From the IMG/VR virus record IMGVR_UViG_3300040801_002913, positions 1 through 47,491 of that record: a DNA stretch of 47,491 nucleotides, one strand, 5' to 3'. Below the pieces are notes generated by a model. The model saw nothing but the letters and a program-made list of their open reading frames with translations. It was not told where the DNA came from and did not search any database. The stretch comes from a virus. Positions 2,021-24,900 of this stretch are shown here, piece by piece. Position 1 is the stretch's first letter. Each line of letters starts with the position of its first letter. The position numbers were made by a program, and so were the translations under genes.

Positions 2021-3343
2021 ATGTCTAAGCTAGTAAACCATAGTAATATTGCTGATTCTGTATTTATTGATTTAATTAGTAATAACCCAATTGTCGTGTA
2101 TGAAGAAATACAAGGCAGTCCTATATACGTCAAATATGACGGTAAAGATATTGTTGTTAAAGCTAGAAATCTTTCCAATGACCCATTGAATTCTATCGAT
2201 TTAGCAATACAAAAATATTATGGTCCTTGTTTTTCATATTTTCAAAATTTATCTGATCGTGTAAAAGGATTAATGAATAAAAAATGGTGGTTTGAATTTG
2301 AATATTTTTTCGATAATTCACCTGCTCACATTGATTATGATCACAAACCTAAAAATGGGTTAGTTTTAACTGGAATAGTTAAAGGTAAAAAAAGACATTG
2401 GAATATTCAAGAATTAATAGAGTATTCTAATTTATTTGAAGTTGATTCAATACCTGTTATATTTAATGGACAACTTGACGAACAACAAGTTGAAATGATA
2501 AAGTATTATGTTAACACTAGTGTTGAAGATTTAAAATTTATTTTTGATGAAGAAAATTTTGCATCTTTTTTCTATAAGATATTAAATCCTGCAATTAATC
2601 ATTCTGCATATATGGAAGATGGCATTTTTCATGATAATTTAGAAAGAATTATTGTTAAAATTCCAGATCAAAAGAAAGAATTAAATTTTGAATTCCTAAA
2701 TCCGTTCTATAATCGGATTGAAGCAGAAGATGATAAAAAAACTGAATTTGTTCAAACATATTCAATTATACTTTTAAATTTCTTAGAACAAGTACAACTG
2801 ATTAATCTTGAAGATTTAAATATTGAAGGCAAACAAAAATCAGATATGTATTTAGATTGCATATGTAAACTATTTAATCATTGGATAAAAAACACTAAAG
2901 ATAGTTTTAAGCATTTCGAATTTAGTGTTCCAAAATTTTTCACTGAAGAAAAATTTAAAGTTAATAAATCTAGAATTAAAAATGAAAAAACGAAACGTCT
3001 AATAGAAAATGATGAAAAGAAAGAATATGCATTTCGATCAATTTTAGGTAGTTTCAACAAACCAAGAAAAAAACCAGTTGGAATTTTTACTTCAACAACC
3101 CTCGGTTTATTTAACGATATGGTATATAAAATCGATGAATTTTTAGAAAAACAATTAAAACTAAATCGTGATAGTAAGTTAAAAAAAAATGATTTGATGA
3201 ATTTTGATGATTTTCATCAAGTTAGTTATGATCAAGATGCAGCAGGAGTTGTTTATCCAGATATTTATGGTAGAGTTGAAGATGAAGGAGCTGATAAGAA
3301 AGGCAAGAAAAAAGCATATCCCACTATTTCCAAAAAACCATAA
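2021..3343 (+). CDS. Ligase/nucleotidyltransferase-fold-like protein
   Basis: 440 residues. Residues about 25-55 resemble motif I and the following hairpin of ATP-dependent nucleic-acid ligases (VVYEEIQGSPIYVKYDG, then VVKARN). Around residue 88 comes WWFEFEYFF, like motif IIIa, then HIDYDHKPKNGLVLTGI, which recalls motif III/IV regions in phage RNA-ligase-like proteins. In the best alignment by eye the nucleophile lysine is replaced by Glu (EIQG instead of KxDG), although a KYDG follows ten residues later. The C-terminal third is Lys-rich. It is preceded by TATATAA three nt before the ATG. It sits two genes upstream of kptA, so an RNA-repair role is possible, but activity is uncertain. Confidence 0.45.
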   Translation: MSKLVNHSNIADSVFIDLISNNPIVVYEEIQGSPIYVKYDGKDIVVKARNLSNDPLNSIDLAIQKYYGPCFSYFQNLSDRVKGLMNKKWWFEFEYFFDNSPAHIDYDHKPKNGLVLTGIVKGKKRHWNIQELIEYSNLFEVDSIPVIFNGQLDEQQVEMIKYYVNTSVEDLKFIFDEENFASFFYKILNPAINHSAYMEDGIFHDNLERIIVKIPDQKKELNFEFLNPFYNRIEAEDDKKTEFVQTYSIILLNFLEQVQLINLEDLNIEGKQKSDMYLDCICKLFNHWIKNTKDSFKHFEFSVPKFFTEEKFKVNKSRIKNEKTKRLIENDEKKEYAFRSILGSFNKPRKKPVGIFTSTTLGLFNDMVYKIDEFLEKQLKLNRDSKLKKNDLMNFDDFHQVSYDQDAAGVVYPDIYGRVEDEGADKKGKKKAYPTISKKP

Positions 3344-3373
3344 TTTTGTTTATATTGCATAAAAATATTAATT

Positions 3374-3787
3374 ATGCATCTAGATGATTTATATAATGAC
3401 ATTCTATTAACAGGTTCCAAAAAAATGCAAAGAGTTTGGAAAAACTTATTGCAATTTGAACAAACTGTTATTTCTTCTCCAGCATCCGAAAAAACACATT
3501 ATTATGAATTGGATGAATTCAATAAACCTATTCAAAATCATATTCATAAGTTATTGAATAAATTTGGATTCGTTAATGGTAATCCCGAAGCAAATAAAAA
3601 CAACCATGCAATTCAGATTTTGTGGTGGTTATATCAAGAAACAAATAATGCTGTTTATAGACAACCGTGTCTAAGTGCCGATGTAGCAAATCATCATGCA
3701 TCAGCAGCAGATAGAAAAAAAGCAATTTTGATGAGTATTGATTTGTTGAAAAACTTAATAAAAAGATTATATAAAGTAAATGGCTAA
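3374..3787 (+). CDS. Hypothetical protein
   Basis: 137 residues, not recognised. It appears all-helical, with a His/Trp-rich middle (NHAIQILWWLYQET) and a conserved-looking ADVANHHASAADRKKA segment. No zinc pattern is clear. Its end overlaps the kptA start by 8 nt, so it is probably co-expressed with kptA. TTTGTTTA (3345-3352), a motif recurring in intergenic DNA here, lies just upstream. Confidence 0.65.
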   Translation: MHLDDLYNDILLTGSKKMQRVWKNLLQFEQTVISSPASEKTHYYELDEFNKPIQNHIHKLLNKFGFVNGNPEANKNNHAIQILWWLYQETNNAVYRQPCLSADVANHHASAADRKKAILMSIDLLKNLIKRLYKVNG

Positions 3788-4331
3788 AAAGAAATCACCA
3801 AGAAAAATAAGTCAACATATTGCCTTATTACTTCGGCATGATCCTAAAGGTTATCCAATCGATTCCGAAGGTTGGATGAAATCAAAAGATATATGCAAAG
3901 AAGTGGGTATTAATTTCGACTTTTTAGAAAAAATAGTCTCAGACGATGACAAACAACGATATGTTTTTAATAAAGACAAATCTAAAATACGTGCTAATCA
4001 AGGACATACCAACAAAAATGTCAAGATAAATTATCCAGTAGTCAATCCTCCTCAATATTTATATCACGGAGCGCCAACCAAAAAACAGTCAATCATCATG
4101 AAAGAAGGTTTAAAACCAATGGAAAGACATGATGTTCATTTAAGTCCAGATTATGATACAGCCAAAAAAGTTGGTCTTAGAAGAGGTGACAGCGTTATAT
4201 TTGAAGTTGATTGTATAGATATGTTATATGATGGCTTCGAATTTAGAAAAGCTGAAAATGATGTTTGGTTAATTCAACATGTGCCATCCGATTACCTAAC
4301 AGTAGCAGGTTATGAGCAGAAAAAAGTTTGA
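3780..4331 (+). CDS. kptA: RNA 2'-phosphotransferase (KptA/Tpt1 family)
   Basis: 183 residues, full family length. Tpt1/KptA enzymes remove an internal or terminal RNA 2'-phosphate using NAD+, releasing nicotinamide and ADP-ribose 1'',2''-cyclic phosphate. All hallmark motifs are visible: LLRHDP (R19, H20) in the N-terminal winged-helix lobe, KIRANQGHT (R71, H76), LYHGA (94-98), and R116 before VHLS (119-122) in the ADP-ribosyltransferase lobe, then NDVWLIQHVP. The four family catalytic residues (R-H-R-R) therefore appear intact. It overlaps the genes on both sides (8 and 20 nt), so it is part of an operon with unknown partners. Some family members can also ADP-ribosylate nucleic-acid ends. 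The phage role is unknown, but it consumes the cofactor that this phage seems equipped to rebuild. Confidence 0.93.
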   Translation: MAKKKSPRKISQHIALLLRHDPKGYPIDSEGWMKSKDICKEVGINFDFLEKIVSDDDKQRYVFNKDKSKIRANQGHTNKNVKINYPVVNPPQYLYHGAPTKKQSIIMKEGLKPMERHDVHLSPDYDTAKKVGLRRGDSVIFEVDCIDMLYDGFEFRKAENDVWLIQHVPSDYLTVAGYEQKKV

Positions 4332-6274: not shown

Positions 6275-6303
6275 CATAAAAAAAGGAGAAATTAATCTCC
6301 TTT
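6275..6303 (-). terminator. Intrinsic terminator of the sigma-factor gene
   Basis: Read on the minus strand, AAAGGAGA (6303-6296) pairs with TCTCCTTT (6289-6282) around a 6-nt loop and is followed by a T-run. The stem begins within the sigma gene stop codon. This is the expected form of a rho-independent terminator. Confidence 0.8.
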
Positions 6304-6949
6304 AAACACATTGTTTTGTTTTTCTTTTTCGTCGGTATGTCATCTTGTGACTTGTTTTCAAAATATTGTCGTTTAATTGATCAAGAGTATCAAGAGTATC
6401 AATATAATCAAAATCGTCTTTAACAAGTCTACAAATTAATAATCTAGCTTGTCTAATTCTACTTTTGATTGTATTTAAGTTGACATTTAATTCATCAGAA
6501 ATATCTTGATATGAATAATCTTTTACGTGACGAAGTGTTAAAACATCAGCATACTTTTTTGGCAACTTTGGAATTAATGTGTTCACAATTACCGCTTTCT
6601 TATCAGAGATTTTTTTAACTTCTTCAGTATCTTCTATACTTTGCATCAATGTGTCGGCTATACATAAACCATCATCAGTTACATTATCTATTGATGAAAA
6701 TCTATTTTTTATCCGTAATTTTTGGATCATTATCCTTTTAGCTATAGTAAATAGCCAAGTACTGTACGCACTTAATGATGGATCATACGAATCAATTCGA
6801 TCTAATCCGACCATAAATGCTTCAGTTGCAACATCATGTGCTTCTTCGGAATCCTTACTAAGTATTGTTAAAAATCGTGTAAGTTTAGGATGGTAATCTT
6901 TGTAGTAGTTTTCAAAAGTGTGGCCAGTTTTTGCTTCAAATTCTGTCAT
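6302..6949 (-). CDS. Phage-encoded ECF-type sigma factor
   Basis: About 215 residues from the ATG at 6949; a TTG at 6973 in frame would add 8 residues, but the A-rich stretch between them looks like a normal leader for this genome. Region 2 is seen as FENYYKDYHPKLTRFLTIL, DSEEAHDVATEAFM and YSTWLFTIAKRIMIQKLR. Region 4 is LPKKYADVLTLRHVKDYSYQDI plus the helix-turn-helix VNLNTIKSRIRQARLL. The C-terminal tail is basic. It would direct host RNA polymerase to phage promoters. The gene lies directly downstream of prs, behind a large nested inverted repeat, and ends in a clear terminator, so it may be controlled separately from the NAD genes. Confidence 0.85.
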   Translation of the reverse strand: MTEFEAKTGHTFENYYKDYHPKLTRFLTILSKDSEEAHDVATEAFMVGLDRIDSYDPSLSAYSTWLFTIAKRIMIQKLRIKNRFSSIDNVTDDGLCIADTLMQSIEDTEEVKKISDKKAVIVNTLIPKLPKKYADVLTLRHVKDYSYQDISDELNVNLNTIKSRIRQARLLICRLVKDDFDYIDTLDTLDQLNDNILKTSHKMTYRRKRKTKQCV

Positions 6950-6971
6950 ATAAATTGCTTTTAATTTTTTC

Positions 6972-7066
6972 AATGCTCTATATTATAGAGAGATATTTGT
7001 TTATGTTTAAAATAACTAAACAAAATGTGCGTACTCTCTATAATATATTTATTAATCCAGAGCATT
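6972..7066 (-). promoter_or_regulatory. Nested inverted repeats between prs and the sigma gene
   Basis: Three dyads are nested: outer AATGCTCT/AGAGCATT (6972-6979/7059-7066), middle 14-bp arms TATATTATAGAGAG/CTCTCTATAATATA (6979-6992/7034-7047), and inner TTTGTTTA/TAAACAAA (6996-7003/7017-7024). The middle and inner pairs are perfect. On the minus strand the inner end contains TATAAT about 30 nt before the ATG at 6949, so the region probably holds the sigma gene promoter and operator. As RNA it could also form a long stem after prs. Confidence 0.6.
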
Positions 7067-7069
7067 CCC

Positions 7070-8032
7070 TTAATCTACCGAATTGATGGCAGATATAGAA
7101 TCACCAGTGATGATTCTGCGAATAAATTCTGCGATTAATGGCGCAGTTGAAAAAACCTTAATATTTTTATTTTTAATAATGTCTGAATGTAATATTGTAT
7201 CGGACGTTATTAATTCCTTCAAACTTGACTTATCAAAATTTTTCAAAATCTTCTTTATTGATGATTCTGGGTGTGTTAAAAACAACGGATGTGTCACAAC
7301 AGCACGAACAGATCTTGCTCCATTTTCAGTCAAATAATCAGAGGCTCCAAATAATGTACCTCCAGTATCGATCATATCATCTACAATTAATACATCTTTA
7401 TCTTTAACTTCTCCAATTAATGTAAAAGACTTGACTTTATTTGGTCCTGATCTAACTTTATCAATCATTACCATTTCAGCATCAGGTCGATACTTTAAAA
7501 ATAATTTAGCTCTTTTAATTCCTCCAACATCAGGTGAAGCAATTACTAAATTATTTTTTTTCAAATTAATTAGAAATTCTCTAAAGATTGTGTGAGAATG
7601 TAAATGTTCAAAAGGAAAATTAGAATATGCTTGGGTCTGCATTGTATGTAAATCAAAGGTTGCAATTCTACCCGGCACAGGTGTACAAGCTTTCTCGATT
7701 ATATCAATAATTAACTTGCTACCTACACTTTTCCTTTTATCATCTTGGCGATCTTGACGACCATAACCAAAATAAGGAATTATTATATTAATTTGCTTAG
7801 CACTTGCGCGTTTACAAGCGTCAATTAATAACAACAATTCCATTATATTTTCAGCTGGTGAATTTGTAGATTGAATAATAAATATTTGTTCATTTCGTAT
7901 TGATTCTTCAATTGTTGGTTCTAATTCACCATCATTAAATTTCAACATTGTAACTGGGACGCATCTTTCATATAATAATGATGCGACTTTGTGTGCTATT
8001 TCTTTTGAATTTGATCCTGCTATAATTTTCAT
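7070..8032 (-). CDS. prs: Ribose-phosphate pyrophosphokinase (PRPP synthetase family)
   Basis: 320 residues, usual family length. The family makes PRPP from ribose-5-phosphate and ATP. Visible motifs: FNDGE (32-36), IPYFGYGRQDR (about 89-99), the DLHTMQ metal/ATP loop, PDVGGIKRAK (about 168-177) and the PRPP-binding loop VDDMIDTGGTL (about 217-227). It follows nadV and a small zinc protein in one operon, where its product is the co-substrate of NadV. One alternative matters: in the known phage NARP1 pathway a Prs-like enzyme uses ADP-ribose instead (ADPR-pyrophosphate synthetase). The motifs seen here are shared, so the substrate cannot be decided by eye; the separate NadM-type gene favours ordinary PRPP synthesis. 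Confidence 0.93.
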   Translation of the reverse strand: MKIIAGSNSKEIAHKVASLLYERCVPVTMLKFNDGELEPTIEESIRNEQIFIIQSTNSPAENIMELLLLIDACKRASAKQINIIIPYFGYGRQDRQDDKRKSVGSKLIIDIIEKACTPVPGRIATFDLHTMQTQAYSNFPFEHLHSHTIFREFLINLKKNNLVIASPDVGGIKRAKLFLKYRPDAEMVMIDKVRSGPNKVKSFTLIGEVKDKDVLIVDDMIDTGGTLFGASDYLTENGARSVRAVVTHPLFLTHPESSIKKILKNFDKSSLKELITSDTILHSDIIKNKNIKVFSTAPLIAEFIRRIITGDSISAINSVD

Positions 8033-8257: not shown

Positions 8258-8287
8258 AAAAAAGAACTGGATTAATCCAGTTCTTTT
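8258..8287 (-). terminator. Terminator at the end of nadV
   Basis: A perfect 28-bp palindrome (8260-8287), with arms AAAAGAACTGG and CCAGTTCTTTT around ATTAAT, spans the nadV stop codon. On the minus strand it is followed by a T-run. Strong enough to reduce read-through into the zinc protein and prs, it may set the ratio of NadV to Prs. Confidence 0.75.
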
Positions 8288-9831
8288 GCTATTCTTTCTC
8301 TGATTTCTTCTAATGTATGTTCTTTAACTATTTTGCCATCTTCAAAAACCGTTTCCAGAATGTCATCACTGAAATCAGCAGTTCTTTCATTCATTTCAAT
8401 AGTTTGATAATATGAATTATTACTAACTCCATGGGCTCCAACAATTGGTTTGTAAACAAGTTTCAGTAAACCTTTCTTACTTCTCTTACCATTATCAGTA
8501 ACAGGGTTTTTTTGTAACATTCTACCTTCACCATTTACAATTCCATATGTCGCTTTAAGAGCGAATTTCATAGTATCGCGATCATGTTTTTGAAGTAAAC
8601 CACCACCAGATCCAAATACTATATTTTCAGATGCAAACCCAATCTCTTTCATTCTTTCAAGCATTTTTTCAATTAATGCATAATCAACACCATCACCTTG
8701 GATAACTCTGATTTTTGGATTCAATACCAAATAACCTTTTGAATTAATAGTAGTTCCAAATCTTTCAGCTAAAATTCTTAAAACACCTTTATATTCAAGA
8801 CTATTAAGTTCAGCGGTAGGATCTCCACACATTACCAATACAGGATCACCAGAATCTGGTCGGATTACAGTTGTATCAGTTCGAGCTAAAACTAAATCTT
8901 TAAATTTCTGACCAACTATATAATCACATGCGTTGTAAATATTATAGGTATCAGAAACAATTGCCAATTTTCCGTCTGGATGTTTTTGTAGTATATTTTT
9001 AAAAGCCGATTCTTCTCCATCAATTCCATATAAACACATAACAGAATGTTCTGTTGCTCGTATAGAATACGCAGGCATTGATGTTGTGTTATAATACTTA
9101 CGAAGTAATTTAATACCTGCAATAGTATCAGTTCCCATAAAACTTAACATATGAGATGCAGATAAAATTTCAGCTGATTCTTCAGAAGATACTCCTCTGT
9201 AACCGAAATCGTGACATCCAAAATCAACATTTTGTTCGTCTGAAGTTTCTTTTGCAAATTTCTTCAATAACTTTTTAATTTGGTGACTATTAGAAGCAAT
9301 AGTGATACTTGCCCAAATTTTCATAATCAACGTTTCTACAAAATTAGTTAAGAAATAAGCTCGTGGATGTGTATTTTCAATTGTCATCAAAACGTTTTTA
9401 ATTGGAATAACACTACCTTCAGGCACAGCCTTTATTTTTATAGGCAGTTTACCACCACATACATTAAGAATATATTCCCAACCTTGTCTATCAAAAACCC
9501 CAGGCCCAACATGTTCATCCCAGAAATTTTGTGCTTCATTAATTTTTTCTGCAGTTACTCTAACACCTGTCAAATACTTTTTCAAATAGTATTGAAGACC
9601 AAAGAAAACAGATTGCTCTATTTTACCACCCCTTGCCTCAAGATATGAATACACTTTTTCTGTGTTTGGTGGGTACATTAAACTGTGTGATGCTTTGTAA
9701 CTATCTGTCATCAACATAATGTTATACTGGTTTCTTTCGAACCAATCTTCTAGCAATAATCTTAATGATTTAGGAAGTTTTTCTACTTTTTCTAAATCTG
9801 TCTTTGTCAATGTTGCGATTAAATTTTCCAT
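8272..9831 (-). CDS. nadV: Nicotinamide phosphoribosyltransferase (NAMPT/NadV)
   Basis: 519 residues, close to bacterial and phage NadV. The enzyme joins nicotinamide to PRPP to give NMN. Motifs: MLMTDSYKASHSLMYP near residue 40, YSYLEARGG, HDFGYRGVSSEES (about 207-219), FMGTDTIAG, RATEHSVM (the EHS histidine of the family) and VIRPDSGDPV (about 322-331). It heads the minus-strand operon nadV - zinc protein - prs, with a 206-nt upstream region carrying two 23-bp direct repeats. The related phage enzyme Namat transfers nicotinamide to ADPR-pyrophosphate and is annotated the same way; presence of a NadM-type gene in the window favours true NadV. Confidence 0.94.
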   Translation of the reverse strand: MENLIATLTKTDLEKVEKLPKSLRLLLEDWFERNQYNIMLMTDSYKASHSLMYPPNTEKVYSYLEARGGKIEQSVFFGLQYYLKKYLTGVRVTAEKINEAQNFWDEHVGPGVFDRQGWEYILNVCGGKLPIKIKAVPEGSVIPIKNVLMTIENTHPRAYFLTNFVETLIMKIWASITIASNSHQIKKLLKKFAKETSDEQNVDFGCHDFGYRGVSSEESAEILSASHMLSFMGTDTIAGIKLLRKYYNTTSMPAYSIRATEHSVMCLYGIDGEESAFKNILQKHPDGKLAIVSDTYNIYNACDYIVGQKFKDLVLARTDTTVIRPDSGDPVLVMCGDPTAELNSLEYKGVLRILAERFGTTINSKGYLVLNPKIRVIQGDGVDYALIEKMLERMKEIGFASENIVFGSGGGLLQKHDRDTMKFALKATYGIVNGEGRMLQKNPVTDNGKRSKKGLLKLVYKPIVGAHGVSNNSYYQTIEMNERTADFSDDILETVFEDGKIVKEHTLEEIRERIAKELD

Positions 9832-9881: not shown

Positions 9882-9937
9882 ACTTTGTTTAATTTTTAAT
9901 CTAACTAGCGTTTAACTTTGTTTATTTTTTAATCTAA
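9882..9937 (-). promoter_or_regulatory. Two 23-bp direct repeats upstream of nadV
   Basis: 9882-9904 and 9915-9937 differ at one base; both begin ACTTTGTTTA and end TTTTTAATCTAA on the plus strand, with a 33-bp period (about three helical turns). Each contains TTTGTTTA, a motif recurring in other intergenic regions, and TTAATCTA, which recurs before the gp32 and nrdJ genes. They lie 51-106 bp upstream of the nadV start in otherwise non-coding DNA (9832-10037), where a regulator or promoter would act. A further AT-rich element at 9941-9958 is shared with 36289-36306. Confidence 0.6.
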
Positions 9938-10037
9938 GTGATTTATAGTATATATAAAGATCTAATTGTTTGTTTCAAAATTAAACTAACTTTTTTTCAC
10001 AAAAAATTATTTTTTTCTGTTTATCTCTTAAACGAGA

Positions 10038-11986: not shown

Positions 11987-12031
11987 TTTTCGTTTTTTAA
12001 AAATATTTTTTATTTTTATTCAAAATTATTA

Positions 12032-12070
12032 CAAGTTTGTTTTTAATTTAAACAAACTTGTTTATATTTG
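12032..12070 (+). promoter_or_regulatory. Dyad plus -7 box before the nrtR operon
   Basis: CAAGTTTGTTT (12032-12042) and AAACAAACTTG (12050-12060) form a perfect 11-bp inverted repeat with 7-nt loop. TATATTTG (12063-12070), a TAnnTTTG box, follows 29 nt before the ATG at 12092. A TTTG inside the dyad (12036-12039) is 23 nt from it, slightly longer than usual for -33. The core of the dyad matches 17187-17207 before nadM except at one base. It could be an operator, or partly serve as the rmlA terminator. Confidence 0.55.
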
Positions 12071-12091
12071 TATAAATAATAAATAACCGTT

Positions 12092-12541
12092 ATGCGAAGA
12101 GGATTTTTAAATACTGATTATGATATGGAAGCTGATATATTTCATCAGTTTCGTTTATCAATTGACTATGATGGAGAAAGAGAATCTGAAATAATTAAAT
12201 TTGATTCAGGCGATCCGGTTGTCGATTACATAGACTTCCTATTTTGGTATGATAGCCAAGACGATGTCTTCATGGTTGGTTATTCGTCGGATTGGGATCA
12301 TTTTTTCATGGACACCGAAAAGTGGCGACAAATTTATGTTGATCATGAACAAGATGGCAGTCCAGTCATCAAAAATTTTAACAATTTATCATTAATGAAT
12401 CTTGATAAATTATCAAAATACGTAGTTAATAAAGATATTTCAACCTTTCAAGAATTAAAAGATTACTATTTCAGCAAAAGACCTGAAAAGAAAAAAGAAC
12501 TTGAGCAACAAAAAGAAGCCGAAAAAAATGAAACTAATTAA
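12092..12541 (+). CDS. Hypothetical acidic protein
   Basis: 149 residues, not recognised. It is rich in Asp and aromatic residues (DFLFWYDSQDDVFMVGY, SDWDHFFMDTEKWRQIY) and ends in a charged, probably coiled helix (EKKKELEQQKEAEKN). First gene of the operon leading to nrtR, behind the dyad at 12032-12060. Its end overlaps the next gene by 14 nt. Confidence 0.65.
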   Translation: MRRGFLNTDYDMEADIFHQFRLSIDYDGERESEIIKFDSGDPVVDYIDFLFWYDSQDDVFMVGYSSDWDHFFMDTEKWRQIYVDHEQDGSPVIKNFNNLSLMNLDKLSKYVVNKDISTFQELKDYYFSKRPEKKKELEQQKEAEKNETN

Positions 12542-13139
12542 GTTAAAAGACAAAACCGAATTACTATTCAGAACTGGATTGCAAGGCATTGGTTTTGAAG
12601 TTATTCATCGTGTTGAAAAAGAAGATAAGATAGAAAGAAATCAAATCTTCTTCACTTATGATAAAGAAAAATGGAAAGCATTGGCTGAGGAAGTTGAAAA
12701 AACAAAGGAAATTCCCGAATGGCCATCAACTAAAAATGAGATCCCTGACACAAAAATATTAGTTTTGAGATCAAAACATTATATTGGTTATTATGATGCA
12801 TCAACACATCAAAAACTGGAAAATGCTATTCGTTTTATCTTAAAAAACGAAAAAGATTATTACTATTCACCTGGAACTCCTCCAGAAAATGACATTAAAA
12901 ATGTTGAAGAAATAGAACAAATCCCTGAAAGATTTCCAAATCTGAGAAAAGAAGCAAAAGAAAGTTTTGAAAAATATCAAAAAAGACTTAAAGAATTTGA
13001 GGCCGCTACTAAAAATTGGAACAAACTTCATGAAATTATTGATGGAAAGGGAACACTTGTTGAAGCAATACGTGTTCTTGAACATTATGAATCTGGACAT
13101 TATGAAATTGAAGATTTACAAACAATAGAAAAAATATAA
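12528..13139 (+). CDS. Hypothetical protein, second gene of nrtR operon
   Basis: About 203 residues from ATG 12528; an in-frame TTG at 12501 would add nine Lys-rich residues inside the upstream gene and looks less likely. Not recognised. It has a mixed alpha/beta first half (WPSTKNEIPDTKILVLRSKHY), a Pro/Glu-rich linker near residue 115 and a long charged helix (EAKESFEKYQKRLKEFE) suggestive of a coiled coil. It ends one base before the nrtR ATG, so co-translation with the regulator is expected. Confidence 0.65.
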   Translation: MKLIKLKDKTELLFRTGLQGIGFEVIHRVEKEDKIERNQIFFTYDKEKWKALAEEVEKTKEIPEWPSTKNEIPDTKILVLRSKHYIGYYDASTHQKLENAIRFILKNEKDYYYSPGTPPENDIKNVEEIEQIPERFPNLRKEAKESFEKYQKRLKEFEAATKNWNKLHEIIDGKGTLVEAIRVLEHYESGHYEIEDLQTIEKI

Positions 13140-13140
13140 A

Positions 13141-13818
13141 ATGGATATTACAGTTGATGCAGTAGTATTTGGATATCACGAAGGAGAAGTCAAACTTCTA
13201 CTAATTAAAAGAGCACATCAACCATATAAAGGATCATGGGCGTTGCCGGGTGGTTATGTAGTAGACGAAAAAGATGACTCTCTTGAAGCAGCGGTTAGTC
13301 GGGAACTTTCTGAAGAAACAGGCGCAAACGTTGGTGTAGACTATATGGAACAACTTGGAACATATGGAGATAGATACCGCGATCCAAGAAACAGAACTAT
13401 AACTGTTGCATATTATTGTTTAGTTAGTCCTGAAAAATTAAATCTTTTCAAAACTAGTTATGAGGCGACTGAAATTAGATGGTTCAATATTAATCGATTG
13501 CCCGATTTAGCATTTGATCATTCAAAAATAATCAATGATGCTATATTTCGTTTAAAAGGAAAAATAAGATACCAACCGGTTGGTCTCGAACTTTTACCTG
13601 AAGTATTTCCTTTTAAAGAAGTTCAAACACTATACGAATCTATATTAAATGTAGAATTCAATAGAGGAAATTTCAGAACTAAATTTATGAAATTGGGGGT
13701 AATTGAAGAAACAAATGAAATTGAAGAAGGGGTACCTCACAGACCAGCAAAAATGTTTAGATTTAATAAATCTAAATATTGGCAAAAACAAAAAGATGGA
13801 ATGTATTTTGAAATTTAA
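13141..13818 (+). CDS. nrtR: NrtR-type Nudix-related transcriptional regulator
   Basis: 225 residues with the two-domain NrtR layout. The N-terminal Nudix domain has KGSWALPGGYVVDE and the box core RELSEETGA (about 59-67), so some hydrolytic ability may remain. The C-terminal winged helix starts near LLPEVFPFKEVQTLYESIL and contains NRGNFRTKFMKLGVI and HRPAKMFRF, which are typical of NrtR. The family represses NAD-salvage genes and leaves DNA when it binds ADP-ribose or related compounds; Bacteroidota relatives can also regulate sugar genes. Here the phage also carries nadV, prs and a NadM-Nudix fusion, making NAD control the best guess. Third gene of its operon. Confidence 0.88.
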   Translation: MDITVDAVVFGYHEGEVKLLLIKRAHQPYKGSWALPGGYVVDEKDDSLEAAVSRELSEETGANVGVDYMEQLGTYGDRYRDPRNRTITVAYYCLVSPEKLNLFKTSYEATEIRWFNINRLPDLAFDHSKIINDAIFRLKGKIRYQPVGLELLPEVFPFKEVQTLYESILNVEFNRGNFRTKFMKLGVIEETNEIEEGVPHRPAKMFRFNKSKYWQKQKDGMYFEI

Positions 13819-13829
13819 AAATATAAGAA

Positions 13830-14225
13830 ATGACTATAGCCGATTTTTTTCAACATAATGGATGGTTAGAATCAGTAACATCAATATTCTTGATCTTATT
13901 TCATATACACATTCTATTTAATATTAAAAATAGACATTCGAAATTAATTGTGGCATGTCAAAATAAAATTTATATTGATTATGATCATGTTATAATGACT
14001 ACAAATGAACTTATATTATTTTGGTTATATGTAATTATAATTATATTCGGAGCATTAAATTTTTCTCAATATGAATGGTTTTGTTATGCTGGAATATTTC
14101 TTTTCGATTTTATATTAAGACCACAATTTTATAGAAAACCATTTAAAGAAAATATTCACATGTTAGGAGGACAAATAATATCATTGATCATAATGACACT
14201 ATTTATAGTAATATTAATAATTTGA
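13830..14225 (+). CDS. Small polytopic membrane protein
   Basis: 131 residues with about four hydrophobic spans: 14-32 (LESVTSIFLILFHIHILF), 60-78 (LILFWLYVIIIIFGAL), 84-96 (WFCYAGIFLFDFIL) and 112-130 (IISLIIMTLFIVILII). Starts 11 nt after nrtR, so probably in its operon. It is too short and lacks motifs for the nicotinamide-riboside transporter PnuC; not otherwise recognised. Confidence 0.65.
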   Translation: MTIADFFQHNGWLESVTSIFLILFHIHILFNIKNRHSKLIVACQNKIYIDYDHVIMTTNELILFWLYVIIIIFGALNFSQYEWFCYAGIFLFDFILRPQFYRKPFKENIHMLGGQIISLIIMTLFIVILII

Positions 14226-14284
14226 TTATGAAATTTAGTTAGAAAAAATAAAACAAAATATTCTGAACTTTACAAAGACGAATA

Positions 14285-15370
14285 ATGATTGCTCATGCAA
14301 AACAAATATTAAAAAATAATAACCTCTCTGAAGATTATCCAGAATTTATAGCATTGAAAAATCATCTTGATCCTCATTTTAATTGGATCGGATATTGCAC
14401 TAAAGTATTAATTGAAGATAAAGTGCCATTATATGATGTTTTTAAAATGCATGATATATTTAATAAAGAAAAAATAAATTTGGCTGATGTCAGTAAACTT
14501 AAATATTCAGAATTAGACAGCTATCTGAAAAAAAGACATGTTGAAAATGATGATACACTAACGTTTATTTATACTTCATGTGGTTATGACATCTACAAAG
14601 TTCATGATTACAAAGGAATTCAGAAAATCGGTTCACCCTTGTGGTGCATAAAATCTCAAAAATATTGGGATATTTATGTTGGCAAAAACGGAACACAATA
14701 TGTAATGATTAAAAAAGATTATTCTGATATCTTATTAGATTCAAAATATTCCAATATTCATACTCCAAAAACCGGCTATAATGTCAAAGATCCATTAATT
14801 AGATTCGGGGTTACTTTTCTCAACGGAACTTGCACGGTGCACGATGAAAACAATAGTTATATTCCTAATTGGGGTGGAATTGTTCGGCCATCAAACTTGA
14901 TAAAATTTGATAACGACTTTAGAAAAGAAGTCGGCATGCAAACATACATTCTTCACGATGAAAACAATAATTACGCCAATGATAAAGGTGTTACTAAAGT
15001 ATATGAAGATGAAAAATTTATTGTAACGATGTTTGGAAGAAATCGTGAAAATAATACAACAAATTTACCTGAATTTTACTACATTGTAAAAAGTAAAAAA
15101 TTAGATGTCGGTGAGAATTTAAATTTAATGTATTTAATAATCAACAGAAAAACAATCAAAAGAAAATTTCCAGATACTATAACTGAAATTTGGAATGATC
15201 GCCGAAGCGAATTGTCAAAAAAGTCTATGATTAACATCTATGAAAGTAGTATTTTTGAAAAAGTAATTGCACGAATTGGATTGCATTGGGAAGTTTTTTA
15301 TAATGCAAACAAAGAACACATAGTTCCAAAAAATAAAAATAAGTTACTTAATTTATTCTCCAAAAAATAA
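14285..15370 (+). CDS. Hypothetical protein with WC...Y-G-QYV motif
   Basis: 361 residues, family not named. Residues about 115-145 (GSPLWCIKSQKYWDIY, then GTQYVMIKK) resemble a WC(T/I)...Y...G...lYvi pattern seen in several phage proteins of unknown function. A short phrase VHDENNSY / LHDENNNY occurs twice, about 43 residues apart, indicating an internal duplication in the middle. No signal peptide or membrane span. Its 3' end overlaps the convergent gene 15353-15736 by 18 nt. Confidence 0.65.
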   Translation: MIAHAKQILKNNNLSEDYPEFIALKNHLDPHFNWIGYCTKVLIEDKVPLYDVFKMHDIFNKEKINLADVSKLKYSELDSYLKKRHVENDDTLTFIYTSCGYDIYKVHDYKGIQKIGSPLWCIKSQKYWDIYVGKNGTQYVMIKKDYSDILLDSKYSNIHTPKTGYNVKDPLIRFGVTFLNGTCTVHDENNSYIPNWGGIVRPSNLIKFDNDFRKEVGMQTYILHDENNNYANDKGVTKVYEDEKFIVTMFGRNRENNTTNLPEFYYIVKSKKLDVGENLNLMYLIINRKTIKRKFPDTITEIWNDRRSELSKKSMINIYESSIFEKVIARIGLHWEVFYNANKEHIVPKNKNKLLNLFSKK

Positions 15371-15736
15371 AACTACATCTGTTTTGGGATTAAAAAATGG
15401 TCCATATTTATTTCCAATTCCTAAATAACATAAAGCCAAATCATAATTTCCTTCAAGTAATGCATCAGCTATTCTTTGTTCCTCATATTCTGTCAATCTA
15501 AAATGCGGATCAGGGGTTAATGGATCCAATACTTCAAATGACAATTTGCCATCTTCAACAATAATTTTAATTAAATCGCATAAATTCACATCATCCGGAT
15601 TTTCAACAATTTGATTATTTAAACGATCATAATATACGATTGTTTTTTTATTAGCATTAATTTCATATTTGACTGTTTTACCGTAACGCAAAATTGTTCC
15701 ACTTTCACAGCAATCGATTTGTTCATAGTTGTCCAT
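15353..15736 (-). CDS. Hypothetical protein downstream of primase
   Basis: 127 residues, not recognised. An N-terminal beta-rich part (DCCESGTILRYGKTVKYEI) is followed by a helical pair near residue 90-112 (EQRIADALLEGNYDLALCY) that again recalls UVR-like hairpins. The start codon is preceded by TATATAA with a 3-nt spacer, 3 nt after the primase stop, so it could have its own promoter within the primase end. Confidence 0.6.
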   Translation of the reverse strand: MDNYEQIDCCESGTILRYGKTVKYEINANKKTIVYYDRLNNQIVENPDDVNLCDLIKIIVEDGKLSFEVLDPLTPDPHFRLTEYEEQRIADALLEGNYDLALCYLGIGNKYGPFFNPKTDVVLFFGE

Positions 15737-15739
15737 GAA

Positions 15740-16858
15740 TTATATATTTATCAAATCGAATTTATCTTTGCTAAAATAATTTTCAATATTGCATGTATGA
15801 TAGGGATTTTCAAATTGTTCTGCAACATTACCTAAATCGCCGAAATGATTTTCAAAAAGAGCTCTCATTTTTTGTGGATTAGAATATCTCTGCGACATAT
15901 CTTTAATAAATTTTTTCCATAAAAATGCAGGGTAATTTTGCATTAACATTTCTCTAGTTTTCTTTTGTCCATCTTTATCGTTATCAAAGAAAAAACGAAG
16001 ATCTATTTCAGCCTCAAGTAAAAATGAATAATCAGTATTCACACCAACTAAACCAATACTATTAGGCACCAAAACAGCATCTAAATATCCTTCAAAAACC
16101 GTTATTGGTTTCGAAAAATCAACGTTTAAAATATTATACAAATATGATAATTTATTATATTTAATAAATTCTTTTTCGGTTAACGGTTTATTATCTGGCA
16201 TCATATTCCACAAATCCTCGAAATTATAAATTTTATAAAAACGTCTATCTTTACGTTTTTTCAAATTTCGGAGTTGCATTCCAATAATGATATTTTTTGC
16301 GCGATTTAAACTTATTAAAACTGGTTCTATTTCACCACTTGGTTTCTTATATATTGCTTGATGAAAATATTCGATTTGTTCAATATGTCTATCTAACACT
16401 AAATATCTACCAACACCTGAACGAACATCAATAGGTTTCATATCAAATATTGGAATTTCTGGATCAGAATTTATATGTTTAACAAAATCATCAAAAATTA
16501 TTTTATTATCAAGTTGGAAATCTTCAAATAAATTACTACTTTTGTTATATTCGGTTTTATATTTTTTAGTTTGCGCATCAATCGCCATTATAGATTCGGG
16601 ATCAATTCTAACGTTTAGTTTTTTGTAAAACTTCAATAGTGGCATTGTCGCTCCACAATTGAAACATTTATACCACATATTTTTTAAATATATGTTGCCA
16701 CGCTTCTTATTTGCAAATTTTTGACTGTCACCGCATAATGGACATGCAAAATTTAATCTTTCTGGAAAGGTAACAATTTGTCTTTTTTGAGAATCTTTAT
16801 GATTAGAATCTAATATGTCTTGTATGATTTCCTGTATTTGTCCTGATTCTTGTCCCAT
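15740..16858 (-). CDS. DNA primase (DnaG/T4 gp61-like)
   Basis: About 372 residues from ATG 16858. An upstream in-frame ATG at 16912 would add 18 hydrophobic residues and overlap the divergent gene, so it was not chosen. The N-terminal zinc-binding domain shows CPLC (39-42) and CFNC (65-68). A TOPRIM core follows: FEGYLDAV with its catalytic Glu, then FFFDNDKDGQKK. This domain order matches short phage primases that synthesise RNA primers for the replisome with a helicase, which is not in the window. Family typical length. Divergent from 16904-17173 with a short shared AT-rich promoter region. Confidence 0.9.
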   Translation of the reverse strand: MGQESGQIQEIIQDILDSNHKDSQKRQIVTFPERLNFACPLCGDSQKFANKKRGNIYLKNMWYKCFNCGATMPLLKFYKKLNVRIDPESIMAIDAQTKKYKTEYNKSSNLFEDFQLDNKIIFDDFVKHINSDPEIPIFDMKPIDVRSGVGRYLVLDRHIEQIEYFHQAIYKKPSGEIEPVLISLNRAKNIIIGMQLRNLKKRKDRRFYKIYNFEDLWNMMPDNKPLTEKEFIKYNKLSYLYNILNVDFSKPITVFEGYLDAVLVPNSIGLVGVNTDYSFLLEAEIDLRFFFDNDKDGQKKTREMLMQNYPAFLWKKFIKDMSQRYSNPQKMRALFENHFGDLGNVAEQFENPYHTCNIENYFSKDKFDLINI

Positions 16859-16903
16859 GTATATTATAAAAATAAAAAAAGATTTGTTTAAAATATATAA
16901 ACT

Positions 16904-17173
16904 ATGAAACATCTAAAAATGTTCAATGAATATGCAGATCATGTGTCTTTTTTATCGGCGGGAATTGGTGATGCATCGGGTAAAGCAATAACTGGAAATG
17001 GCATTTCGCCGTCATCTGCTGGATCTGGCGGAAAGGATCAAAGAAAATCTGGACCGGAATCATGGGGTCCAGATAATAAGAAATATGATCAAATTGTGAA
17101 GTCAATGCAAGGAGAAAAACGAAGAAAACGAAAACGAAAGAAAAAAATATCAAGAAACAATTCAACAGAATAA
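16904..17173 (+). CDS. Small protein with very basic C-terminus
   Basis: 89 residues. It begins MKHLKMFNEY, a start common in small phage proteins, followed by a Gly/Ser-rich middle and a strongly basic tail (GEKRRKRKRKKKISR). It may bind nucleic acid or be packaged, but no family is known. TATATAA lies exactly 3 nt before the ATG and TTTGTTTA (16883-16890) just upstream. Confidence 0.65.
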   Translation: MKHLKMFNEYADHVSFLSAGIGDASGKAITGNGISPSSAGSGGKDQRKSGPESWGPDNKKYDQIVKSMQGEKRRKRKRKKKISRNNSTE

Positions 17174-17182
17174 TTTTTTTAT

Positions 17183-17218
17183 TATATTTGTTTATAATTT
17201 AAACAAAGTCTATACTTT
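17183..17218 (+). promoter_or_regulatory. Promoter and dyad before nadM
   Basis: TTTG (17187-17190), then 20 nt, then TATACTTT (17211-17218), fits the -33/-7 layout of Bacteroidota promoters, with the -7 box 29 nt before the ATG. Inside it lies the dyad TTTGTTTA-N5-TAAACAAA (17187-17207), matching the dyad core before the nrtR operon except for one base, so a bound protein would cover the promoter. TATATTTG at 17183-17190 is an alternative -7 box on the same strand. Confidence 0.6.
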
Positions 17219-17239: not shown

Positions 17240-18160
17240 ATGGATCCTAAAGATTACTACGTTGGTGTAATAGTTGGAAGATTTCAACTCGATATTCCAC
17301 ACGAAGCTCATATGAATTTAATACAAAATACGCTTGATAATCATGAGCATGTTGTTATATTCCTGGGCATTGGATATTTGATCAATTCAATAAATAATCC
17401 TCTCGATTTCAAAAGTCGCAAATTAATGATCGAAGAATATTTTGAAGAAGAAAGAGATAGAATTACAATTCTACCAATTCAAGACAAAGAAACGAATGAG
17501 GAATGGTCTGAAGATTTAGATAATAGAATCAAAGAAATTCATCCAGGTAGAAAATGTTTGTTATATGGAGGCCGAGATAGTTTTATGACGAGCTATAAAG
17601 GAAAATTTGATACGACTGAACTGAAACAAGAAATATATGTTTCTGGAACAGATGCTAGACTTGCTGCAAGCAAAAAAGTAATCAAATCACCTGAATATCG
17701 AATCGGTGTTATTGCAGCAGCCCATTCAGGGTATCCTAGAGTAACTGCAACTGTTGATGTAGCTATTGTCGATGAGAAAGAAGAAAAAGTTTTATTAGCG
17801 AAAAGAAACACGGAAAGTGGTTGGAGATTTATTGGAGGTCATATTGATACATCTGATGAATCTGCTAAACATGCAGCAAAAAGAGAAGCAACTGAAGAAA
17901 CAGGGGGTGCCGAAATAGAAATCATAGATTACATTGAACAAGTAAAAGTTAGACCGTGGAAATATCGAGGTGAGAAAGAAGGCATGATGACTACATTGTT
18001 TAAAGGTAAACATGTATTTGGTCCACTTAATCCTGCTGATGATATTGATTTGCTGAAGTGGGTGGAAATAAATAAATTAAAAGAGGAAGGCAATTTTATA
18101 AAAGAGCATGAAATCCTCAGAGATTTATTTTTAGATCATGTTGAAAGAATTAAAAAATAG
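17240..18160 (+). CDS. nadM: Bifunctional NMN adenylyltransferase / Nudix hydrolase
   Basis: 306 residues, same layout as the NatV protein of vibriophage KVP40. The N-terminal nucleotidyltransferase domain has GRFQLDIPHEAH (13-24; the usual HxGH appears as H21-E-A-H24) and VSGTDAR (about 134-140, the ISsTxxR-like motif), and would make NAD+ from NMN and ATP. The C-terminal Nudix domain has GGHIDTSDES and the core REATEETGG (about 213-221), with one extra residue before the conserved Glu; relatives cleave ADP-ribose to AMP and ribose-5-phosphate. It therefore links to Prs and NadV encoded elsewhere in the window. Its end overlaps the next gene by 23 nt. Confidence 0.9.
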   Translation: MDPKDYYVGVIVGRFQLDIPHEAHMNLIQNTLDNHEHVVIFLGIGYLINSINNPLDFKSRKLMIEEYFEEERDRITILPIQDKETNEEWSEDLDNRIKEIHPGRKCLLYGGRDSFMTSYKGKFDTTELKQEIYVSGTDARLAASKKVIKSPEYRIGVIAAAHSGYPRVTATVDVAIVDEKEEKVLLAKRNTESGWRFIGGHIDTSDESAKHAAKREATEETGGAEIEIIDYIEQVKVRPWKYRGEKEGMMTTLFKGKHVFGPLNPADDIDLLKWVEINKLKEEGNFIKEHEILRDLFLDHVERIKK

Positions 18161-21975: not shown

Positions 21976-24900
21976 TTATAGATTTTCTCCATTAGTAATT
22001 ATACCACCGTTATTTATGCCCCATTTCCAAATAAATCTTTGACGATATTCTGAATTGTCCGAGTTGAGTCTGGTATTATTAACAATGCCTCCGTTCATAA
22101 TACCAGCTCTCCAGGTTTCTGCTCTAAAGTTTCCGTTGTTAAATTTGCTTCTCCAAGAAACAGACTCAATTGGCCAAATTGGTTCACCATAATCATCTAA
22201 TTTGAATATTTGAGCAACATTATAATCCAAATTGCCAGAAGTATTTCCAGCAGCGTATAATTGCAACGATGTTCCTGAAATATCACTTAAACGTGCAGTT
22301 CTAATACTATCACCTTTATAATATTTCCAACCAGTTGGTATTACTGGATTTATAATTATACCGCTTCCGGGATCAGTTATATTAGTTGATTCTTCTATAA
22401 TTGCGTAATTAGACAATTTTGGATAAATTGAATTTTCTGATGAGTATAAGAAATAATTGTCAATATTAACAACTTTATCAACTACTAAGCCCTGCGTATT
22501 ATTTTCGGAAAGTTTACTTATAATTTCAGTAACATCTCCAACCATTACGACAACATTATCATAATGGTATGTTGTATTAACATGACTTGATCCAAATAAA
22601 TTACCTATATTAAATGTTGATGGATTATTTAGATCAACTAAAGCAGAAACATTGTTAATAACACATATATCATTCGCAATATATATTGTGAATTTCTGAC
22701 TTGGTTTAACACTTGTAATATAATTTGCACTTGTACTGCCCAATATGCCATCAAAATATAAATCATAATTTTGTGTTGTTTGATTTACGGCGACTCTAAG
22801 TAAATAATTTGTACTATTAGAATCAAAAGATAACAATTCTCCTTCGTTAGCCATAGCTTCAATTGAACATTGTATTGCTACAACAAAATCATCTGGCAAT
22901 TCAATACCATTGATGTATTCAAATTCAGTTAAAACAAAGAAATTGTTAACTACAGCAGCCAAAAACTCGTTGTTTCTATCATCAAATGTCGTTTTGAAAC
23001 TTATATCTGATAAATCTTTAGAAATATATTTTACATCTTTAACAAAATCAATTTCGTTGTTAAATTCTGGATCATCACCAAGATAAAATATACCATCTGT
23101 TAATGGTCTATTCCAAAATCTAATATGATCAACAAAACCGGCGTCACTTATAATTCCTGACACAGGATCTTGTCCAATGAACAATGACTGAATATATGAT
23201 TTGTTTAATCTTAAAGTTGTATTACCTGTTGATGAAACTGTCCAATTTGATCCGTTTATTCCAATTATAGACATATCAGTACAATCAATAATTACAATAT
23301 TGTTTTGTTGATGAACAAGTTTCAATCTATTTGTTTCAAAAATATATTCAAAATATAAATGATTCCATGAAAATACTGAAGAAATTCTTGCTACTGCAGT
23401 GTCCAAAGTGTTTAAATCTTCTTTAGTGATTTTAATCTCAACATCTGTTATTGATAAAATATATGAAGTATTATTAGTCATTTGGAAACCTAATACAATT
23501 GATTCATTACCAGGTGATATTCCCGCTGGGTTAACATAGAGATCAAAAATAATATCTTGACCAATCAAATTATTAATTCCATATGTGATATTGTAACTTA
23601 ATAATCCGTTAAAATTTATAACTCGATTATCTTGCAAGTAATTGAAAATATTTTGGTCTATAATTGTATGATAATCTTTAGATGATTCTGGGCCAATATT
23701 TAAATTATGGTCAAGAATTAACTGATTATTATTGTCATTCGAATCAGGCACTCTATATCGAGTTATTGTGACATTATAATTACCTTCCGCGAAGAAAATT
23801 GGATATACATTAGATACTTGTAAATTTTCTACACGAGAATAAAATGGTTCCGGCAATGTTTCTTTAAATTCGACATATACTAAATCATTATTATCAAAAT
23901 CAATGTCGTTTTCTTCTAAATCAATAATAAATTTAAAGTTTGGTCCATCTTGTTCTATTTGACTTTGTATAATACCAGTCCAATGATAAGATTCAGGTCT
24001 ACTGAACCATTCGCCATCAAATCTAGTTGTGATATTATTAGCATTGAAAACACCACCATTAAATACAGATTTAAATTCATTTACGCCGACATTTGTTAAT
24101 GTTCCAGTGTATTCTCCCCCATTCCAAGCTGAGTTCGATGCATATGCGTAATCAAAGGTAAATGTTCCGCCAGATTCAATCATCATATTTTGTTGATATA
24201 AAACTAATTCAGACGAATTAAATACACGACGATATAAGCTATCATTTAATACATTATCAGAATCATAAAATCTAAATGGGTTTTTAACTTTTATCTTATT
24301 GAAGTTAATTTCTTGAATTCTAAATGCTTTACTCGAAGACGATCCAATTACACGTGCTTTATTACCACTAAAACCTCTTAAGAATATAAATTGTAATGGA
24401 CTTAAATCCATTATAGGTCTTTCACAAACAATCCATAAAAATTCTCTATCATCAGTGAAATAATAATCTTGTATTTTAACAAAGTCACCATCGAAAAATT
24501 GACCACTTAAAGTTGATTTAGCATTTGAAAAACCTTTAGTGTCTTGATTTAACCAACCAGATGTTTTAATATTAATATTTGTTGATCCCGAATAAATTAA
24601 TGAATTTTCAATTATTGTTGGATTAGTAGTCTGATTTGGATTTGTCAAAACAGAATTAATTATAACTAAATCTGAAATATTTTCTGTGCTATCATATGTC
24701 GCATTATTAACGTTGACCATTAATAAATTTTGAATTTTACGGATACTATTAATATTTAAAGAACTCGGTCCGCCATTCAAACTTTTATCAAAAACTTGAA
24801 CTTTTTCTGGCGAAACAATAGTTCCAAAATCTACAGCATCTTCCGTTTCAACAGTGTCAAGAGACTCGATAATAACATTTTCTTTCATAAATTTAATTTT

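Follow-up and report, generated by a model that had tools for sequence, protein, structure and literature searches.

A 47,491-bp linear virus record in IMG/VR (IMGVR_UViG_3300040801_002913, 29% GC; hereafter the window, meaning the whole stretch of DNA analyzed) encodes a regulator of the NrtR family together with the nicotinamide adenine dinucleotide (NAD) genes nadV, prs and nadM. Five inverted repeats of related sequence are located 5' of nadV-prs, of nadM and of the operon that contains nrtR. Based on a comparison with cellular NrtR loci, we consider it highly likely that these repeats serve as operators for the NrtR encoded by the phage itself, which would control nadV-prs, nadM and its own operon, with relief of repression by ADP-ribose.

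Inverted repeats at the NAD promoters

Operator 1 (positions 12031-12061), located 5' of the nrtR operon, is a 31-bp inverted repeat with perfect arms of 12 bp, ACAAGTTTGTTT-TTAATTT-AAACAAACTTGT, and a 21-bp core at 12036-12056. Operator 2 (17187-17207), located 5' of nadM, reads TTTGTTT-ATAATTT-AAACAAA. As stated in a preliminary description of this DNA, made from the sequence alone, the two 21-bp cores differ at one base and share the arms TTTGTTT and AAACAAA. Three relatives of the dyad, overlooked in that description, were found within the 206 bp 5' of nadV, at 9884, 9917 and 9969; read on the minus strand, they conform to TTAGNTT-N7-AAACAAA. Operator 3 (9969-9989, minus strand, TTAGTTT-AATTTTG-AAACAAA) holds the -7 box TAATTTTG (9976-9983), operator 4 (9917-9937, minus strand, TTAGATT-AAAAAAT-AAACAAA) lies 52 bp from operator 3, and operator 5 (9884-9904, minus strand, TTAGATT-AAAAATT-AAACAAA) lies 33 bp from operator 4.

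The intergenic DNA, 2,131 bp with a GC content of 19%, was subjected to 300 dinucleotide shuffles. Matches to TTTGTTT-N7-AAACAAA with at most zero, one and two mismatches numbered two, three and eight, as compared to expected values of 0, 0.013 and 0.45, and no shuffle equalled the observed counts; the three nadV sites are among the eight. Perfect 7-7-7 repeats of any sequence are expected 1.1 times in the shuffled intergenic DNA. Because such repeats are not rare in DNA this rich in AT, the signal lies in the recurrence of the same sequence. The looser consensus TTWGNKT-N7-AMNCWAA had six matches in the window (the five operators and one intragenic match at 22779), as compared to 0.28 expected, and among the intergenic regions exact matches were found only at the three NAD promoters, and at every one of them. 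A motif scan of the whole phage genome, suggested in the preliminary description, was made over the window, a fragment of that genome, which contains only two exact TTTGTTT-N7-AAACAAA sites.

Exact Bacteroidota -7 boxes (TAnnTTTG) were present at all three promoters: TATATTTG at 12063-12070 (plus strand) for the nrtR operon, TATATTTG at 17183-17190 (plus strand) for nadM, and the box at 9976-9983 on the minus strand for nadV. This agrees with the earlier statement that the dyads lie on or next to TAnnTTTG-type promoters 5' of NAD-related genes, and since exact boxes stand at these promoters, the host is probably a Bacteroidota bacterium. The nadM dyad had been placed between the -33 and -7 boxes. 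This placement was not upheld, as the TTTG of the best -7 box constitutes the first four bases of operator 2, which consequently covers the -7/start region. The first nadV site contains its -7 box, and operator 1 ends 2 bp before that of the nrtR operon.

Recognition helix and operator base in phage and cellular NrtR proteins

The nrtR gene (13141-13818, plus strand) encodes a Nudix-like domain and an NrtR winged helix (Pfam NUDIX, 2e-17; NrtR_WHD, 3e-19). The AlphaFold2 model of the protein had a predicted local distance difference test (pLDDT) score of 91.5, and its best matches in the PDB were BtAraR and SoNrtR. The Nudix box retains REUxEExG, with D46 in place of the upstream E and a 2-residue insertion; cellular relatives keep E46. 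In the phylogenetic tree, phage NrtR falls in a clade with the huge-phage protein L010 and 48 Bacteroidota NrtRs, many of them encoded beside NAD genes (support 98/92), and AraR is placed outside. Arabinose genes were found neither as neighbors nor as targets; the targets are NAD genes. The NF050029 model for ADP-ribose-responsive repressors was matched with an E-value of 8e-46, but with 156 bits, below the cutoff of 400. As this is an equivalog model and not a family-defining feature, the shortfall lowers confidence in that one protein name only.

The recognition helix of phage NrtR is N174-R-G-N-F-R-T180, corresponding to D178N, R180G and K184T in BtAraR numbering. NRGNFRT was found in phage NrtR alone among about 100 homologues, and D(K/R)RNFRK is kept in most cellular NrtRs. 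In the structure of BtAraR bound to DNA (PMC4666351), the first G of GTGT is read by K179 and the last T-A pair by N181 and K184; D178 makes contact with the C facing the second G, and it is here that R180 intercalates, between the T-A and G-C pairs. The phage protein carries N, G and T at positions 178, 180 and 184, and the phage operator carries a T in place of that second G, at the base pair touched by D178 and R180 in BtAraR.

When genomes were scanned with four aligned viral NrtRs, 80 cellular NrtR loci with 44-53% identity were obtained, mostly from Bacteroidota. Many of these are operons of the type nrtR-nadM-nadV-prs or nrtR-prs-kptA-nadV, which is the phage's own gene set, and kptA stands beside nrtR in about 19 of the 80. 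Exact TTWGYGT-N7-ACRCWAA sites were found in 49 of the 80 loci, both directly 5' of nrtR and in the interval that separates it from the next NAD gene (nadV, prs or nadM). In Tenacibaculum skagerrakense and Mesonia phycicola, all exact matches in the genome lie within the nrtR locus. The Bacteroidota operators, TTTGYGT-N7-ACRCAAA, have a 7-7-7 geometry identical to that of the phage dyads, and the phage operator differs by one base, GTTT in place of GTGT. Tandem pairs are spaced 52-54 bp apart in 11 of 13 cellular cases, as compared to 52 bp for the phage sites at 9917 and 9969. TAnn precedes the left-arm TTTG in 44 of 73 cellular operators, such that the TTTG doubles as a -7 box, as it does at the phage nadM promoter. 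Bacteroidota NrtR dyads thus share length, geometry and kind of promoter with the phage dyads, which lends support to the earlier proposal of a candidate NrtR operator common to the nrtR operon and nadM.

N at position 178 and S or T at position 184 were likewise found in two groups of Saprospiria (NRRNFRS in Aureispira and NKRNFRT in Neolewinella-type genomes). In four Aureispira genomes, TTAGTTTAAAATATAAACAAA or a form with one mismatch is located approximately 55-105 bp 5' of an Adps-like gene and namat. Aureispira also has TTAGTTT-N7-AAACTAA 5' of pncB and GTTT sites 5' of nadA. Neolewinella-type genomes have GYTT sites 5' of nadA and pncB (names of nadA and pncB in both groups from reading the translations). 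Neolewinella antarctica (L195) had no nadV match at threshold and no operator at nrtR, and its GYTT evidence is at nadA. GYTT sites numbered 27 in five N178 genomes, as compared to 7 for a reversed-pattern control, whereas there was no excess in seven D178 genomes (23 versus 35). At D178 nrtR loci, a GYGT site was found in 40 of 75 and a GYTT site in none. Several N178 genomes additionally encode further NrtR paralogues and have between one and three GYGT matches, and both types of site can therefore coexist.

The changed operator base of the phage thus pairs with changes in the reading residues defined in BtAraR (PMC4666351), the Saprospiria repeat the pairing and the D178 genomes lack it, which further strengthens the operator proposal. 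This match of helix and base across lineages was observed directly, as were the site sequences, their geometry, the target genes and the protein family. The pattern suggests a simple rule for the specificity of NrtR-family proteins, by which D178 would read GYGT, and N178 with S/T184 would go with GYTT; such a rule could be used for predicting NrtR-family regulons. The tree, in which phage NrtR forms a long branch and groups apart from Aureispira, tentatively suggests that the change arose more than once. GYTT sites were also observed 5' of non-NAD genes that genomes have in common (an MGYGKWSS protein in L386, L388 and L392; an SPFH-like one, judged by eye, in L319 and L326), which may point to a wider regulon behind these sites (L381-L395 in Saprospiria, L319 and L326).

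In viral contigs, nrtR adjoins or lies close to nadV or nadM in L010 (also LR756504.1 and L005), L011-L013, L015, L250, L251 and L253 (labels as filed in IMG/VR), and phage NrtR-NAD modules therefore recur. In the huge phage L010, which has a D178-type helix, a GTGT core with two outer mismatches lies just 5' of nadM-nadV; the L005/L010 locus had no exact match to the cellular operator consensus near its NAD genes. L011-L012, with the helix DKRNFRK, have two GTGT-N7-ACAC cores just 5' of nrtR. In Bacillus phage G (gp273, L008), nrtR lies near a nicotinate phosphoribosyltransferase gene. The Bacteroidetes NrtR loci L016 and L017 in IMG/VR have TTTGTGT- or TTGCGT-type dyads 5' of nrtR, and L017 also has an ADP-ribosylglycohydrolase gene; these contigs may be bacterial. 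Two phage records in INPHARED look bacterial, L006 being an araR-araA locus and L009 a prs-nadV-nrtR operon among transporters.

Alternative explanations and the proposed switch

The sites might be read by a host NrtR, instead of or besides the phage protein, which would make the NAD genes of the phage part of the host's NAD regulon. Such an arrangement would fit the Bacteroidota-like promoters of the phage and the reading of the same GTTT site class by the N178 NrtRs of Saprospiria. We nevertheless consider it unlikely, because the phage encodes a full NrtR with a helix that matches the sites, one of which heads the nrtR operon, and because most Bacteroidota NrtRs read GYGT and are not expected to bind the phage sites. 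Moreover, the phage-type motif was found within 400 bp of nadV in none of 79 nadV-bearing viral loci, although this is only a fair control, as many of these loci are GC-richer and almost all lack nrtR.

TTTGTTT half-sites occur in further intergenic regions, some of them at -7 boxes (3345, 39841 and 6996), which would fit a dyad that is bound by a different phage regulator or belongs to a class of promoters (such as that of the sigma factor encoded at 6302-6973), if its placement at NAD genes were a coincidence. However, both half-sites at a G-to-C distance of 13 bp were found only at the NAD promoters, and the geometry and tandem spacing (52 bp) agree with those of cellular NrtR operators, which makes this explanation very improbable. 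A chance origin of these palindromes, in intergenic DNA so rich in AT, is more improbable still: perfect 7-7-7 repeats of any sequence arise about once in such shuffled DNA, but the same sequence occurred eight times (0.45 expected), a count reached in no shuffle, and at three NAD promoters.

Several observations weigh against an NrtR regulon of this kind. The nadV sites at 9884 and 9917 are imperfect, with five of seven arm pairs each. The loose consensus TTWGNKT-N7-AMNCWAA was partly fitted to the same sites that it counts, and the independent, comparative evidence therefore weighs more. Since the window is a fragment, the counts cover only the part of the phage genome within it. The affinity of phage NrtR could be low, as its branch in the tree is long and the protein has no Arg at the intercalating position. 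Scans of IMG/VR with the single proteins NrtR and NadV gave no close relative in which site conservation could be seen. Finally, ADP-ribose is assigned by analogy, being the ligand of SoNrtR, and AraR shows that the ligand can change within the family.

We favor control by the phage's own NrtR. From the preliminary description the shared site is retained, and the regulon is amended to include nadV-prs with its three sites, along with the revised geometry at the nadM promoter. The nadV gene (8272-9831, minus strand) encodes a nicotinamide phosphoribosyltransferase of the NAMPT type with the sequence GSGGGLLQKHDRD. Downstream of it, prs (7070-8032, minus strand) encodes a ribose-phosphate diphosphokinase (NCBIfam PRK01259, 319 bits; cutoff 297), and nadM (17240-18160, plus strand) encodes a fusion of nicotinamide mononucleotide adenylyltransferase (NMNAT) and Nudix domains (NMNAT domain, 23.0 bits; cutoff 21). 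Prs makes phosphoribosyl pyrophosphate (PRPP), NadV uses nicotinamide and PRPP, and NadM completes NAD+. NAD-depleting defenses release ADP-ribose and nicotinamide.

Binding, repression, the effector and an anti-defense role would combine as follows. An NrtR dimer would bind TTWGNTT-N7-AANCWAA, in its strongest form TTTGTTT-N7-AAACAAA, at three promoters: once at that of its own operon, once at that of nadM, over the -7/start region, and three times at that of nadV-prs, where two of the sites are spaced by 52 bp. At these operators it would block RNA polymerase. Upon cleavage of NAD+ during infection, for example by an NAD-depleting defense of the host, ADP-ribose would bind the Nudix-like domain and NrtR would be released, as SoNrtR leaves DNA on binding ADP-ribose (PMC4666351). 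Prs, NadV and NadM would then rebuild NAD+ from nicotinamide, and removal of ADP-ribose by the Nudix domain of NadM may subsequently reset the switch. With an ADP-ribose-responsive repressor of these genes, the rebuilding of NAD+ would be switched on while NAD+ is being destroyed. As a more tentative extension, the phage may possess a ligand-inducible counter-defense regulon with its own ADP-ribose sensor, in which a DNA specificity changed from GTGT to GTTT shields it from the NrtRs of most Bacteroidota hosts. Phages have been described that rebuild NAD+ to overcome NAD-depleting immunity; if the proposed control is correct, this virus probably starts rebuilding only when needed. Since sensor, operators and target enzymes all lie on one phage fragment, an immune-triggered counter-defense is directly testable.

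Other features of the window and known systems

Two genes at the head of the nrtR operon (12092-12541 and 12510-13139, plus strand) matched no family in Pfam, NCBIfam or PHROG; they are candidates for additional NAD-related or anti-defense functions. The window also encodes the NAD-dependent RNA 2'-phosphotransferase KptA/Tpt1 (3780-4331, plus strand), a single-stranded DNA-binding protein, the sigma factor (6302-6973, minus strand) and, judging from the translations, a ribonucleotide reductase and proteins of the tail type. A perfect 28-bp palindrome, AAAAGAACTGGATTAATCCAGTTCTTTT (8260-8287), at the 3' end of nadV is followed by a T run on the minus strand and is likely to represent a terminator or attenuator that separates nadV from the gene that follows and from prs.

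A weak candidate half-operator, TTTGTTTATATTGCATAAAAA (3345-3365, plus strand, two mismatches), is located 5' of g3374 and kptA and overlaps a -7 box, TAATTTTG (3341-3348); it may be a promoter alone. The sites at 6996, 3345 and 39841 were not taken as operators, as each has only one good half-site and -7 boxes themselves end in TTTG. At 7004-7022, an inverted repeat was rejected because its G-to-C distance is wrong. The region between prs and the sigma factor gene (6974-7069) contains imperfect dyads whose spacing does not suit NrtR; they may be the site of another regulator.

Both NAMPT and NMNAT are present in the window, consistent with a NARP2-like NAMPT-NMNAT salvage route. A NARP1 (Adps-Namat) identity was dropped, as the NAMPT-like enzyme, with GSGGGLLQKHDRD, lacks the Namat clamp motif GSX.X.X.TRD. 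In many cellular NrtR operons, a Namat motif of the type GSFTYQYNTRD was observed beside an Adps-like gene (L174, L196, L204, L214, L228, L241, L246-L248 and L346-L349). Thus, an NrtR-family regulator appears to control NARP1, which consumes ADP-ribose, in bacteria.

We found no description of a phage-encoded NrtR regulon in the open-access literature, to which our search was confined, and the literature found on NAD+-rebuilding phages describes the enzymes but gave no account of how their genes are switched on. The pairing of nadV and nadM has been reported for phages, and Nudix-helix-turn-helix regulators have been proposed for ADP-ribosylglycohydrolase systems of hosts (PMC9503650). What is new is a phage-borne NrtR with its own operators and NAD targets, together with the D178/N178 operator rule; the NrtR family and phage NadV and NadM were already known.

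The phage protein resembles SoNrtR (PDB 3gz5, 3gz6 and 3gz8), an ADP-ribose-responsive NrtR, in combining a Nudix-like domain with an NrtR winged helix, with a fold match. It also resembles the NrtR family in its palindromic 21-bp operators at NAD genes and in having its own operon among the targets. It differs from known NrtRs in being encoded by a phage, in its GTTT rather than GTGT or GCGT operators, in the separate operons of its targets, in the helix NRGNFRT instead of D(R/K)RNFRK, and in the altered Nudix box (E46D and the 2-residue insertion). BtAraR of Bacteroides (PDB 5bs6 and 5dd4; PMC4666351) has the same fold (TM approximately 0.86), and its operators, AGTGT-N7-ACACT, have a 7-bp spacer as in the phage; however, it binds arabinose and controls arabinose genes, whereas the phage protein groups with NAD-type NrtRs and is encoded among NAD genes. 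The Saprospiria NrtRs (Aureispira and Neolewinella) share N178, S/T184 and TTAGYTT-N7-AARCWAA operators at NAD genes with the phage, but they are cellular, keep R180, have pncB, nadA and adps-namat as targets, and are not sister to phage NrtR in the tree. With regard to the enzymes, NARP1 (PMC12774641) is a phage NAD+ reconstitution system like the one proposed for the window, which has no Namat motif. The NAMPT-NMNAT salvage route of NadV and NadM (PMC9503650) is the same as that encoded here by NAMPT, the NMNAT-Nudix fusion and Prs.

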